DNA from: Comamonadaceae bacterium
Lineage (GTDB): Bacteria > Pseudomonadota > Gammaproteobacteria > Burkholderiales > Burkholderiaceae_C
Direction: 5' to 3'
Length of the DNA stretch: 64,000 nt
Assembly: GCA_947478725.1 (NCBI GenBank)
Contig: CANJWZ010000013.1
Span: 1-64,000 of the forward strand
Shown: positions 6,434 to 50,563 of the stretch, piece by piece
Layout of the letters: every line of letters begins with the position of its first letter
Position numbering within the stretch: the first letter of the stretch is position 1
The notes under the pieces: generated by a model
The model's database searches: none
What the model saw: the letters and a program-made list of their open reading frames with translations, nothing else
What the model was told of the DNA's origin: nothing
Position numbers and translations under genes: made by a program

Positions 6434-6518
6434 GGATAAATGGTAGGTGATGTCACACAGCTGAGAACCGCAAATTGTAAGCAGAGGGTTTATCAAGCAG
6501 GGGCCGCGGGGGTCACAT

Positions 6519-18829: not shown

Positions 18830-20290
18830 TTAAGCTGCGCCCGAGCTTTTGGCGTTGGCAAACCTCACGGCAATGCGTGTGCCCACCGATTCAGGGCGTC
18901 CCGTCAGCATGGCGTCTTCAATACTGACTGTCGCATCATGCTGGTTGGCAATCTCGACCACAATCGCCAGGCCCAGACCTGAGCCGTCGACGTTTGTGCC
19001 TAGCGCGCGATAAAAGGGCTGAAAGACCAGTTCACGTTCAGCCGCTGGAATGCCGGGTCCGGAATCTTCAACCAGCAGCACCAGCACCCCGCTGAACGAG
19101 TCTGTCAGCAGCCGCAGTGTGACCTGGCCCTTTTCTGGGGTGTAGGCAATCGCGTTGTCCAGCAGGTTGCGCACCAGCTCTTTGAGGAGCGTGGGGTTGC
19201 CTTCAAGTTGCGTGGCTGCCCCCCCTGGCTCCGGTCCGTCGTAGCCCAAATCAATCTGCTTTTCAAGCGCGCGGGGCACGGAGTCGGCCATGATTTCGCT
19301 GGCAATACTGACAAAGTCTAGCGCTTGCTTGGGCAAGCTGCGGCCCGTGGCTTCTGCGCGTGCCAGTGCCAGCAACTGGTTAACGGTGTGGGTGGCGCGA
19401 ATGCTGGATTTGCCGATATGTTTGAGCGACTTTTTCAGCTCGTCGGCATTGGTTTCGCGCTGTGCCAGGTCGGCTTGCATCCGCAAGCCCGCCAGCGGTG
19501 TTTTCAATTGGTGTGCGGCATCGGCTAAAAAGCGTTTTTGAGTGGTCAAGGACACTTTCAAACGGCTCAGCAGGTCGTTCATGGAGGACACCAGTGGCGC
19601 CACCTCTTCGGGTACTGCGGTGTCATCCAGCGGGCTCATGTCATCTGGTTTGCGTGCGCGGATGCGCTTTTCAAGTTGCGCCAGCGGCTCGATACCGCGC
19701 ACCAACGCCAGCCACACCAGCAGCACCGCCAGCGGCAGCGTGACAAACTGCGGCACCATTGTGCCCTTGACGATTTCAGTGGCCAGGGTCTTGCGTTTTT
19801 CAAGGGTTTCGGCCACCTGCACCAACACCCGACCTGTGCTTTTGTCGGCCACCTTGATCCAGGTGTAGGCGACGCGAACTTCTTCGCCGTTGATCACGTC
19901 TTCACGCAATCGCACTTCGTTATCGGGCACTTTTTCGTCTTCAACCGGCGCTGGCAAATCACGCTCGCCAGCCAAAAGCTCGCCCCGCGAACCCCGTACC
20001 TGGTAGTACACCAGGTCGGTGTCATCAGCTCGCAAAATCTCACGTGCCGGACCGGTCAGGTTGAATTGCACCTGGTTGTTTTTGACCGCCACAAACTTGC
20101 TGAGGGCTTGCACGTTGAACTCAAGAGCGCGGTCAAACGGCTTGCCAGCAATGTTTTGCGCCACCAGCCAAGTCAGCCCAAGGCTGATCGGCCACAGCAG
20201 CAGCAGCGGCGTAAGCATCCAGTCAAGAATTTCGCCGAACAGGCTTCGGCGCTCACGTTGAAATATCCTTATGGCCAAACGAGCCCCCAC
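18830..20290 (-). CDS. Sensor histidine kinase, TctE/QseC-like, start rebuilt by a repeat
   Basis: 486-residue membrane kinase. Transmembrane helices lie near 25-45 and 178-198 around a 2CSK_N-type periplasmic domain. HAMP follows, then the phospho-acceptor His260 in AAHQLKTPLAG, the N box (ELVRNLLDNAIAYTP) and G boxes (EDSGPGIP, GSGLGLAIV). The usual N-terminus MNFQRERRSLFGEILDW is broken. RERRSLFGE begins here, but the matching ATG-AAT-TTT-CAA stands 200 bp upstream (20469-20458), separated by a GC-rich repeat and out of frame. The frame is now open from a GTG at 20290 within the repeat end. Works with the response regulator upstream. Confidence 0.85.
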   Translation of the reverse strand: MGARLAIRIFQRERRSLFGEILDWMLTPLLLLWPISLGLTWLVAQNIAGKPFDRALEFNVQALSKFVAVKNNQVQFNLTGPAREILRADDTDLVYYQVRGSRGELLAGERDLPAPVEDEKVPDNEVRLREDVINGEEVRVAYTWIKVADKSTGRVLVQVAETLEKRKTLATEIVKGTMVPQFVTLPLAVLLVWLALVRGIEPLAQLEKRIRARKPDDMSPLDDTAVPEEVAPLVSSMNDLLSRLKVSLTTQKRFLADAAHQLKTPLAGLRMQADLAQRETNADELKKSLKHIGKSSIRATHTVNQLLALARAEATGRSLPKQALDFVSIASEIMADSVPRALEKQIDLGYDGPEPGGAATQLEGNPTLLKELVRNLLDNAIAYTPEKGQVTLRLLTDSFSGVLVLLVEDSGPGIPAAERELVFQPFYRALGTNVDGSGLGLAIVVEIANQHDATVSIEDAMLTGRPESVGTRIAVRFANAKSSGAA

Positions 20291-20463
20291 GGTCGCTCAC
20301 TTCGTGTAGTTCCCTGCCCTTGCAGGCCGCCGCTTGCCAAAGGCTTCGCTTGTGTCGCCTGTCCAAACCTGCTCAAGCAGGTTTGGAGCCGCAGGCTCCA
20401 GCCCCCGAGGGGGCCGCTGCGCCTGCGGCCTGGCAAAGCCAGGCCCAAAGCCCCTGCTTGAAA
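20264..20463. repeat. Dispersed repeat family B, inserted in the kinase start
   Basis: GC-rich element with CCCCCGAGGGGG, a perfect inverted pair CAAACCTGCT/AGCAGGTTTG, and GAGCCCCCAC near the other end. TTGAAA stands at both edges (20258-20263 and 20458-20463), consistent with a 6-bp target duplication. Exactly 200 bp separate the two copies, so the insertion shifts the reading frame. It also carries a spurious open frame (20269-20469, minus) that starts at the displaced ATG. Confidence 0.75.
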
Positions 20464-20496
20464 ATTCATTTTTTTACCTTTGAAAAGCGTATGAAG

Positions 20497-21171
20497 TTAA
20501 CTTGGGATTTTTTCCAGGCAATAGCCGAGCCCGCGAACCGTCGCAATCCGAATCGGCCCCTTTTCAATCTTCTTGCGCAAGCGGTGGATGTAGACCTCAA
20601 TGGCGTTGTTGCTGACTTCCTCGCCCCACTCGCACAGTCTTTCAACCAGCTGGTCTTTGCTGACCAATCGGCCTGCGCGTTGCAGCAGCACCTCCAACAG
20701 GCCGAGCTCGCGGGCGGACAAATCGATCATGGCGCCGTCAATGGTGGCGACGCGGCCGCCCTGGTCGTACACCAGCGGGCCGTGTTTGATGGTGCTGCTC
20801 GCCGCGCCCGCGCCGCGTCTGACCAAGGCGCGCACGCGGGCTTCGAGCTCTTGCAATGAAAATGGCTTGGCCATGTAGTCGTCTGCGCCGTAGTCCAAGC
20901 CTTTGACCCGCTCTTCCACGCTGTCAGCGGCTGTCAAGATCAATACCGGCAGAGTGGAGCCACGGGCTCGCAAGCGCTTGAGCACCTCCAGCCCATGCAT
21001 CCGGGGCAGGCCCAAGTCCAGAATCAGCAAGTCAAACTCGGTGTTGGTCATCAGGGCTGCATCGGCTTCCGACCCGCTGGCCACGTGGTCTGCCGCCGCG
21101 CCGGAGGCACGCAGCGTGCGCAGCAGGCCGTCGGCCAGCACCTGGTCGTCTTCGGCAATGAGAATTCGCAT
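20497..21171 (-). CDS. Response regulator, OmpR/TctD-QseB type
   Basis: 224 residues from the ATG at 21171. The receiver domain starts MRILIAEDDQVLADGLLRTL, with phospho-acceptor Asp52 in LILDLGLPR and the conserved lysine in YMAKPFSL. A C-terminal winged-helix DNA-binding domain ends GPIRIATVRGLGYCLEK. It lies directly upstream of its kinase; the native spacing was 27 bases before the repeat moved in. Comparable systems sense tricarboxylates or host signals, but the ligand here cannot be told. Confidence 0.92.
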   Translation of the reverse strand: MRILIAEDDQVLADGLLRTLRASGAAADHVASGSEADAALMTNTEFDLLILDLGLPRMHGLEVLKRLRARGSTLPVLILTAADSVEERVKGLDYGADDYMAKPFSLQELEARVRALVRRGAGAASSTIKHGPLVYDQGGRVATIDGAMIDLSARELGLLEVLLQRAGRLVSKDQLVERLCEWGEEVSNNAIEVYIHRLRKKIEKGPIRIATVRGLGYCLEKIPS

Positions 21172-49537: not shown

Positions 49538-50563
49538 ATGACTCAAAAAGCCACTTTTGGGGCTTGTTTTAGGCCGGTAGCCCAATTTATGCTTAGGCGA
49601 TCAGCTCCTCTTTTTATAGCGTTTGTTTTGTCCATGTGTCTCACGGCGCAAGCCGCCGACTACACCGGCCCCTTGTTTGACGCGCACCTTCACTACAACG
49701 AAGACGCCTGGAACGGCAAGACCGGACCTCACCCGGTGGGCGACGTGCTGGCACGCATCAAAAGAAGCGGCGTCAAAGCCATCATTGCCAACAGCCGCCC
49801 GAACGATGGCAGCAAGGCGCTGGTCAATGCCGCGCTGGGTAGCAACGACCTGACGGTGGTGCCCTTCATTCGCCTGTACCGCAACCGGGCTGACTACGAC
49901 AGCTGGTTTAAAGACGAGACGATTTACGACATGGTGGTGGCTGAGTACGCGCGTGGCGTGAGCGTCGCGTCAAACCGGGTTGAGTTCAGAGGCATAGGCG
50001 AGTTTCACTTGTACGACAGCGCCAATGCGAACGGCGCGGTGGCTAAAAAACTGATGCAGTTTGCGGCCAAAAACAAACTGGCTGTTTTGGCCCACGTGGA
50101 CGACACAGCGGTTGACCTGCTGATGGCACACGCGCCAGATGCCAGACTGATCTGGGCGCACACCGGCATTGGCGGCGCACCTGCGGCGCGTGTAGATGCG
50201 CTGTTCAGCAAATACCCGCAACTGATGGGCGAGCTGTCGTACCGGCCCGGCTTGACCTGCGATGGTGGCAGGCTCGACGCCGGGCCGCCCCAAGGCGAGC
50301 AAGCCCCCTCGGGGGGCAGCGAACGACACGAAGTGCAAAAGCGTGGGGGTCCATATCTCTGCCCCGAATGGCGAGCGCTGCTGCTGAAGCACCCAACCCG
50401 CTTCATGATCGGCTCAGACACCTGGGTCAACCAGCGCTGGCAATACTATGAAGAGCTGATGAAGGGCTACCGGGTGTGGCTGGGTGACCTGCCGGCTGAC
50501 GCCGCACGCAGGATTGGCTGGACCAATGGCGCGGACCTGTTTGGGGTGAAAACAGGCAACTGA
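49538..50563 (+). CDS. Exported amidohydrolase-type TIM-barrel protein with two repeat-derived segments
   Basis: 341 residues. The signal peptide hydrophobic core ([16 protein letters not shown]) is encoded by a family A repeat. The mature part begins with [16 protein letters not shown] (metal HxH of the amidohydrolase fold), then [16 protein letters not shown] and MIGSDTW. Between [16 protein letters not shown] and [15 protein letters not shown] lie 28 extra residues ([20 protein letters not shown] then QKRGGPYL) from a family B repeat, exactly 84 bp between two CTC codons. Natural substrate unknown. ATG 49538 has AAGGGG upstream; 49589 is an alternative. Confidence 0.82.
49595..49622. repeat. 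Dispersed repeat family A in a signal-peptide region
   Basis: GATCAGCTCCTCTTTTTATA followed by GCG: the GCT-xCT-n-TTT-ATA-GC core, read GCT CCT CTT TTT ATA GCG. Confidence 0.5.
50276..50359. repeat. Dispersed repeat family B, inside the amidohydrolase gene
   Basis: GGGCCGCCCC, then AGCCCCCTCGGGGGGCAGCG, then ACACGAAGTGCAAAAGCGTG and GGGGG. It matches the fmt copy block by block and shares ACACGAAGTG...GTGGGGG with the kinase copy. CTC stands at both edges (50273 and 50357). Confidence 0.8.

Follow-up and report, generated by a model that had tools for sequence, protein, structure and literature searches.

The best-known cases of mobile repeats that lie in frame come from Rickettsia, and the MITE Chunjie is said to have inserted in an operon without disturbing it. 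The Rickettsia palindromic elements (RPE; Ogata et al., 2000, 2002) are dispersed, structured repeats that lie in frame in unrelated metabolic genes, and in-frame repeats outside Rickettsia are called merely conceivable in the consulted sections of a review (PMC10969869). The Betaproteobacterial repeat element (BRE; Hot et al., 2011) is described, in the consulted parts of its report, as a GC-rich and mostly intergenic unit of about 90 bp, often arranged in tandem arrays whose units adjoin or stand a few bases apart; some BRE overlap the ends of open reading frames or lie within coding sequences, and the hosts include Bordetella, Polaromonas JS666 (29 elements), Delftia, Acidovorax and others (PMC3110155).

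A GC-rich repeat that recalls each of these systems in some respects was found between a response-regulator gene and a sensor histidine kinase gene in the window, the whole stretch of 64,000 nucleotides analyzed here (Comamonadaceae bacterium, contig CANJWZ010000013.1); both genes and the repeat copy are on the minus strand. The response-regulator gene (20497..21171, TctD/PmrA/QseB-like) was assigned a start at ATG 21171 (MRILIAEDD) and ends in the stop codon 20499-20497. Its NCBIfam matches were below curated cut-offs, and the protein was 91-100% identical among BLAST-matched relatives, with one exception. The kinase gene (18830..20278) has its likely native start at TTG 20278 (MAIRIFQRERRSLFGE...), as placed from Pfam domains and the N-termini of relatives; Pfam 2CSK_N, HisKA and HATPase_c all matched above cut-offs. 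The kinase of a Polaromonas MAG (locus L061, genome G015) was 97% identical, and the other near matches were also from Polaromonas; on these grounds the genome was taken as that of a Polaromonas. The repeat copy (20283..20462, 180 bp), delimited by BLAST, pattern search and copy alignment, has the conserved ends TTCAAGCAGGGGC and CGTGGGGGC. It is a long form, common among relatives, with an extra middle of about 82 bp (20320..20401) that is absent from short-form copies on copy comparison. This middle contains a perfect 12-bp inverted repeat at 20362-20387 and also occurs at G000:C6:48445-48574 and in many copies of relatives.

The first-pass annotation held that a mobile unit had inserted here with a 6-bp target duplication (TTTCAA) and had split the kinase start. 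The details on which it drew are present in the sequence: on the minus strand, ATG-AAT-TTT-CAA stands at 20469-20458, separated by 27 bases from the regulator stop and preceded at 7 nt by AAAGG, a ribosome-binding-site-like motif (20477..20481), CGT-GAG-CGC runs from 20257 with a second TTTCAA (20263-20258) before it, and the distance from hexamer to hexamer is 200 bp. ATG 20469 with its AAAGG is a plausible translation start, parted from the kinase body by the repeat. The duplication itself was rejected, because the left hexamer is mostly repeat end and the right one consists of conserved kinase codons. Position by position, the left TTTCAA agreed in 8, 18, 16, 23, 20 and 22 of 23 other aligned copies from this genome, and the six bases before it in 1-10 of them; conservation therefore starts at TTCAAGCAGGGGC, and five of the six bases are the repeat's own end. 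At that place, TTCAA was found in 11/23 and full TTTCAA in 5/23 of these copies. The right TTTCAA supplies the F-Q codons before RERR, and F-Q was found there in 50/61 junctions, among them 10 of the 11 insert-free junctions where the kinase overlaps the regulator. The 61 comprise the window and 60 named loci; 5 loci were omitted as incomplete or too distant, and L126 was unused. A third TTTCAA lies in the spacer (20485-20480). No target-site duplication or terminal inverted repeat flanking the window copy was found. At the sister loci L095 and L096, an insertion at the regulator-kinase junction is flanked on either side by TTGAAAA, with the TTGA stop-start overlap at each end; an insertion that duplicated this overlap would spare both genes.

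The composite MNFQ-RERR, which had been expected as the kinase start, was read at 0/61 called starts. The nearest in-frame starts gave M-A-(I/L)-R-(I/L)-F-Q or M-(R/K)-(L/I)-F-Q directly before RERR, with variants in more distant relatives, and the case that the annotation had set against its own proposal, homologues that normally start with GARLAIRIFQ, thus largely applies. It had likewise considered that all relatives might carry the same 200 bp; only L061 among the 61 junctions has this copy, and at the others the genes overlap or are separated by a short spacer, by differently oriented copies or by other sequence. At L115 (G012), among the nearest relatives, ATG-GCA-ATT-CGC-ATC-TTC-CAG stands nine bases past the regulator stop and no repeat is present; the window reads TTG-GCC-ATA-AGG-ATA-TTT-CAA at 20278. 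Because homologues start likewise before RERR, the latter was taken as native coding sequence, and TTG 20278 is likely the native kinase start, left intact by the repeat. The proposed cutting of the kinase start, with poor production of the kinase, did not stand, as native start codons before F-Q are still there and the kinase is intact. The GTG in the repeat end (20288..20290) that had been suggested as a replacement is a possible alternative start, but would add four unconserved residues. ATG 20469 was disfavored as the kinase's own start, since no relative's kinase begins so, and was retained as the start of a bridge frame (below). What survives of the inserted mobile unit is a dispersed repeat that lies between the genes and looks like an insertion, without a TTTCAA target duplication.

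The GC-rich stretch between the hexamers was confirmed as recurrent, with 56 BLAST pieces in its own genome (the first being the window itself). Most copies there matched query bases 8-68 and then directly 151-188, which defines a short form, about 105 nt long. A search with a strict pattern built on the CCCCCACG end gave 49 copies in this genome vs. 0 for a reversed control, and 2 matches in the window vs. 0 expected. The second window match (50243..50349, plus strand) lies in frame in a gene for a 341-aa amidohydrolase-like protein (49538-50563), to which it adds about 35 residues; the Pfam Amidohydro_2 profile spans the insert with E 5e-4, below cut-off. A lone exact copy of the opposite repeat end, CAAGCAGGGGCCGCGG, was noted at 6494-6509 (plus strand) near the start of a phosphoglycerate-kinase-like gene, so named from reading its translation, and is perhaps a remnant. 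Strict pattern counts in eight relatives ranged from 2 to 127, and at least one copy was present in 42/90 genomes sampled across the family, this genome included. With the window copy as BLAST query, matches were obtained in 34/61 genomes, all of them within the genus. The end motif alternates between CACTTCGTG and CGCTTCGCG, which looks like a preserved short stem. No terminator-like or promoter-like site was found in the repeat. A known structured RNA was set aside, with no Rfam match above gathering score in the whole window and three senseless matches below it.

The repeat resembles BRE in being GC-rich, in its short form of about 105 nt and in tandem periods of 83-84 in other genera (83-84 in G142 and G083, 84 in G014; the window locus is not tandem), and the 38 pattern matches in G032, taken as JS666, compare with 29 BRE published for that strain (PMC3110155). 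The window copy, a long form, differs by its additional 82 bp or so, and in-frame insertion in named genes, a fixed distance from stop codons and bridge frames are features of the present repeat that are absent from the consulted parts of the BRE description (PMC3110155). Membership in the BRE family is probable, the match being by description and not by sequence. With MITEs, Chunjie included, the repeat shares its small size, its non-coding nature and a position within an operon in which both genes are kept, whereas neither terminal inverted repeats nor a target duplication were demonstrated for it. Like the REP sequences associated with RAYT transposases, it is a short, structured, multi-copy repeat near gene ends. 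It differs in having no association with a Y1_Tnp gene, and in length (80-180 bp vs. 20-40 bp for REP in the consulted part of PMC3733652). Y1_Tnp, the REP transposase family, occurred once or twice in 11/11 genomes whatever the copy number of the repeat (2 to 127 where counted), and the repeat pattern was near 0/6 Y1_Tnp loci (one locus per stretch of 2.0-3.4 kb); with the repeat absent beside these loci, a REP/RAYT mobilizer was set aside. Presence and absence among relatives point to mobility of the repeat, and no mobilizer was found.

The regulator-kinase junction varied widely among the 61 loci. The two genes overlapped by four bases (TTGA or GTGA) without an insert in 11, a copy in the window's orientation lay next to the kinase in 15 (12 of these also had a forward copy before it), a forward copy stood alone in 9, and the remaining 26 had other spacers. 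Several repeat families seem, from these sequences, to land at this junction. On a tree of the 61 kinases, built quickly and with 17/57 inner branches open, the repeat family was gained or lost at the junction no fewer than 11 times, and 17 switches from one junction type to another were counted. The spacers of L062, L122, L067, L069, L084, L109 and L111 resembled other dispersed repeats (for example, CGCAGAGG...CTCTGCG palindromes, CTTCCCCC..GGGGGAAGG, AAAATGATAGCTA).

Elsewhere in the genome, copies were found both behind and inside genes. Among copies classed as lying behind a coding region, the CCCCCACG end began 0-22 nt after the stop codon in 12/13 here, 13/13 in G024 and 30/30 in a G026 sample; 25 copies outside genes comprised 24 between co-directional genes, 1 between convergent genes and none between divergent genes. 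With genes called by a codon-usage script and not by a standard gene finder, 22 of the 49 copies in this genome lay in a single open frame flanked on either side by coding signal (under a laxer rule the count was 23, of which one, L142, precedes its gene). The corresponding counts were 5/20 in G024 (20 of 23 copies sampled) and 2/45 in G026 (45 of 127 copies). Control places 700 bp away scored as in frame in 44/96 cases here, 22/40 in G024 and 47/90 in G026, so that in-gene copies are at chance level in this genome and depleted in the other two. Enrichment within genes is accordingly not claimed, control places scoring as high or higher; the notable point is that in-gene copies keep the frame. 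All forward in-gene copies used a single frame (9/9, APTL...), and the reverse copies used two (13/13, with L142 set aside).

Of the 22 proteins with in-gene copies, 20 were scanned, and in 16 of these, family profiles matched both before and after the insert: mpl, fdhD, metX, thrC, radA, recQ, AMP nucleosidase, holA, gcvP, DUF2126, purL, hydantoinase B, an EF-Tu-like (cysN-like) protein, a methylmalonyl-CoA mutase with MeaB domain, recG and an alpha/beta hydrolase. One of the others gave the sub-cut-off match described above (49538-50563), two matched on one side and one had no match. Orthologues of three of these genes were compared, with inserts assigned to the repeat family by reading. For metX, 11/20 alignable loci of the genus carried the repeat family in one loop (some copies degenerate, one locus with two), 8 had a short loop and one had a long loop of other sequence. 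For thrC, 4/21 carried the repeat, one a different in-frame repeat, one a short other insert and 15 none. For radA, 2/21 carried it, one copy being degenerate. All 62 segments aligned from these orthologues (62/62), with or without an insert, were multiples of three, with the frame uninterrupted. The counts indicate that the same loop takes inserts repeatedly, like the regulator-kinase junction. In the G012 thrC (L246), a different GC-rich repeat (CCCTCACCCTAGCCCTCTCCC...) lies in frame in the same loop as the CCCCCACG repeat of other species. One bin (G020) contains two radA genes (on C242 and C28), one with a degenerate insert and one without. The likeness to RPE, which is one of working principle, lies in the stop-free, in-frame presence within unrelated protein-coding genes (22/49 copies) and in the single frame of the forward in-gene copies (9/9). 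The repeat differs from RPE in host group, in length (about 105 or 180 bp vs. about 150 bp for RPE in the consulted sections of PMC10969869) and probably in sequence, and 27/49 copies here are not in frame in genes. Literature searches found no report of in-frame copies in Polaromonas.

At the window junction, a frame of 66 codons, referred to here as the bridge frame, runs stop-free from ATG 20469 across the repeat and closes with TAA 20271-20269 (20269..20469, minus strand), 10 nt inside the kinase start. The frame has the same length in L061/G015, and 3/66 residues differ between the two genomes; selection on the peptide sequence is therefore not visible. GGGGG of the repeat end (20284..20288) precedes TTG 20278 by 5 nt, where a Shine-Dalgarno sequence would stand, and both are partly paired in the predicted fold (unpaired values 0.82 to 0.05 for GGGGG and 0.20 to 0.42 for TTG). 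Bridge frames, defined as starting within -5 to +40 of the regulator stop and open to the kinase start, were counted at the 37 junctions with a spacer of at least 60 nt, and expectations were taken from dinucleotide shuffles. Frames starting with ATG were present at 13/15 junctions with the repeat in the window's orientation vs. 1.7 expected, at 2/9 forward-only junctions and at 2/13 with other spacers. With any start codon, the counts were 13/15 (4.1 expected), 5/9 (4.1) and 4/13 (2.9), respectively. The 15 junctions fall into about five groups on the kinase tree and are not independent, so nominal P values are not quoted. In the same class, GGGGG of the repeat lies 2-11 nt before the kinase start in 15/15, and predicted pairing with what we take to be the 16S tail sequence was -8.4 kcal/mol or stronger in 15/15 vs. 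1/46 of the other junctions. Genome-wide, copies just behind a stop codon had a bridge frame in 40/55 cases vs. 32.0 expected when the short spacer alone was shuffled, a weak excess, and bridge frames were rejected as a strong genome-wide rule.

The explanation favored here, to which a probability of about 0.55 is given as a whole, is that the repeat inserted with both genes left intact and that translation may be relayed from regulator to kinase. The repeat, which is GC-rich, structured and dispersed in Polaromonas and other genera of its family, would have placed a copy in the regulator-kinase junction before the lineages of this genome and L061/G015 separated, and the kinase would have retained its native N-terminus (TTG 20278). 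Ribosomes finishing the regulator could restart at ATG 20469, cross the repeat, stop at the TAA ending at 20269 and re-initiate at TTG 20278 with the aid of GGGGG. Regulator and kinase may in this way be kept translationally coupled by the repeat, and the C/G-rich spacer would not be left untranslated, a state that could invite Rho-dependent termination. The same translatability would explain the survival of many copies in frame within genes. In favor of this explanation stand the native kinase start, the repeated occupancy of the junction, the ATG bridge frames and predicted 16S pairing in one class of junctions, and the in-frame copies; against it stand the non-independence of these junctions, the weak genome-wide bridge excess, the largely compositional openness of the repeat, the partial pairing of GGGGG and TTG and the lack of visible selection on the bridge peptide.

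Other explanations were weighed against the same observations. That a mobile unit duplicated TTTCAA and split an MNFQ-RERR start, leaving a poorly made kinase, is highly improbable: ATG 20469, its AAAGG site and both hexamers are present, but the left hexamer is five-sixths conserved repeat end, the right one is the F-Q of insert-free junctions, and native start codons before F-Q persist. The repeat could instead be a neutral passenger, with junctions and surface loops simply tolerating insertions and with the bridge frame and the GGGGG spacing arising as by-products of a GC-rich element with one fixed end. Comparison with shuffled sequences agrees with this, as open frames numbered 145 vs. 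128 for in-gene copies and 387 vs. 358 for the remaining copies; the repeat is thus barely poorer in stops than its shuffles, and its openness is mostly a matter of base composition. The small genome-wide bridge excess and the unrelated sequences that fill the same junction and the same thrC loop (L246) also fit neutrality. The excess of ATG bridge frames in one class of junctions, far above expectation, and the constant placing of GGGGG before the kinase start in that class do not, and we regard neutrality as possible but rather doubtful.

A role in setting kinase dose is also unlikely, to a slightly greater degree. Strong hairpins would here cause pausing on the message or its cleavage, or mask the kinase start, and so yield less kinase relative to regulator; the predicted RNA fold of the repeat (-97.3 kcal/mol, z -3.0) and the partial pairing of the start region are in keeping with this, against which stand the lack of a terminator-like site in the repeat, the lack of an Rfam match above threshold and the 11/61 relatives whose insert-free junctions work. 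We give still less weight to the view that the repeat is a typical MITE or remnant of an insertion sequence, mobilized by a known transposase. Its many copies and lineage-specific presence, together with the TTGAAAA that flanks the insertion in L095/L096, would suit such an origin, but no terminal inverted repeat or target duplication was found for the window copy, and Y1_Tnp was present in all 11 genomes regardless of copy number, with no pattern near the six loci.

Taken with the in-gene copies, the favored relay reading suggests that the repeat is mobile DNA that is tolerated, or persists, where it can be translated. The window locus is ordinary as an intergenic insertion and was wrongly read as a broken kinase start; its interest may lie in the in-gene copies elsewhere and in the possible bridge. 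By analogy with RPE, it is tentatively proposed, at somewhat below even odds, that this is a translation-compatible mobile repeat of free-living betaproteobacteria, which would be carried either in frame as a loop of 25-45 residues in housekeeping enzymes or, between coupled genes, as a relay made of a stop-free frame and GGGGG. With its states of overlap, one copy, two copies and other spacers, the junction forms a natural series in which the translational coupling of operons after an insertion could be measured. In Polaromonas, whose members are free-living and partly culturable, natural pairs of one enzyme, one member with the insert and the other lacking it, number in the dozens, and they make it possible to test directly how functioning proteins acquire new peptide segments.
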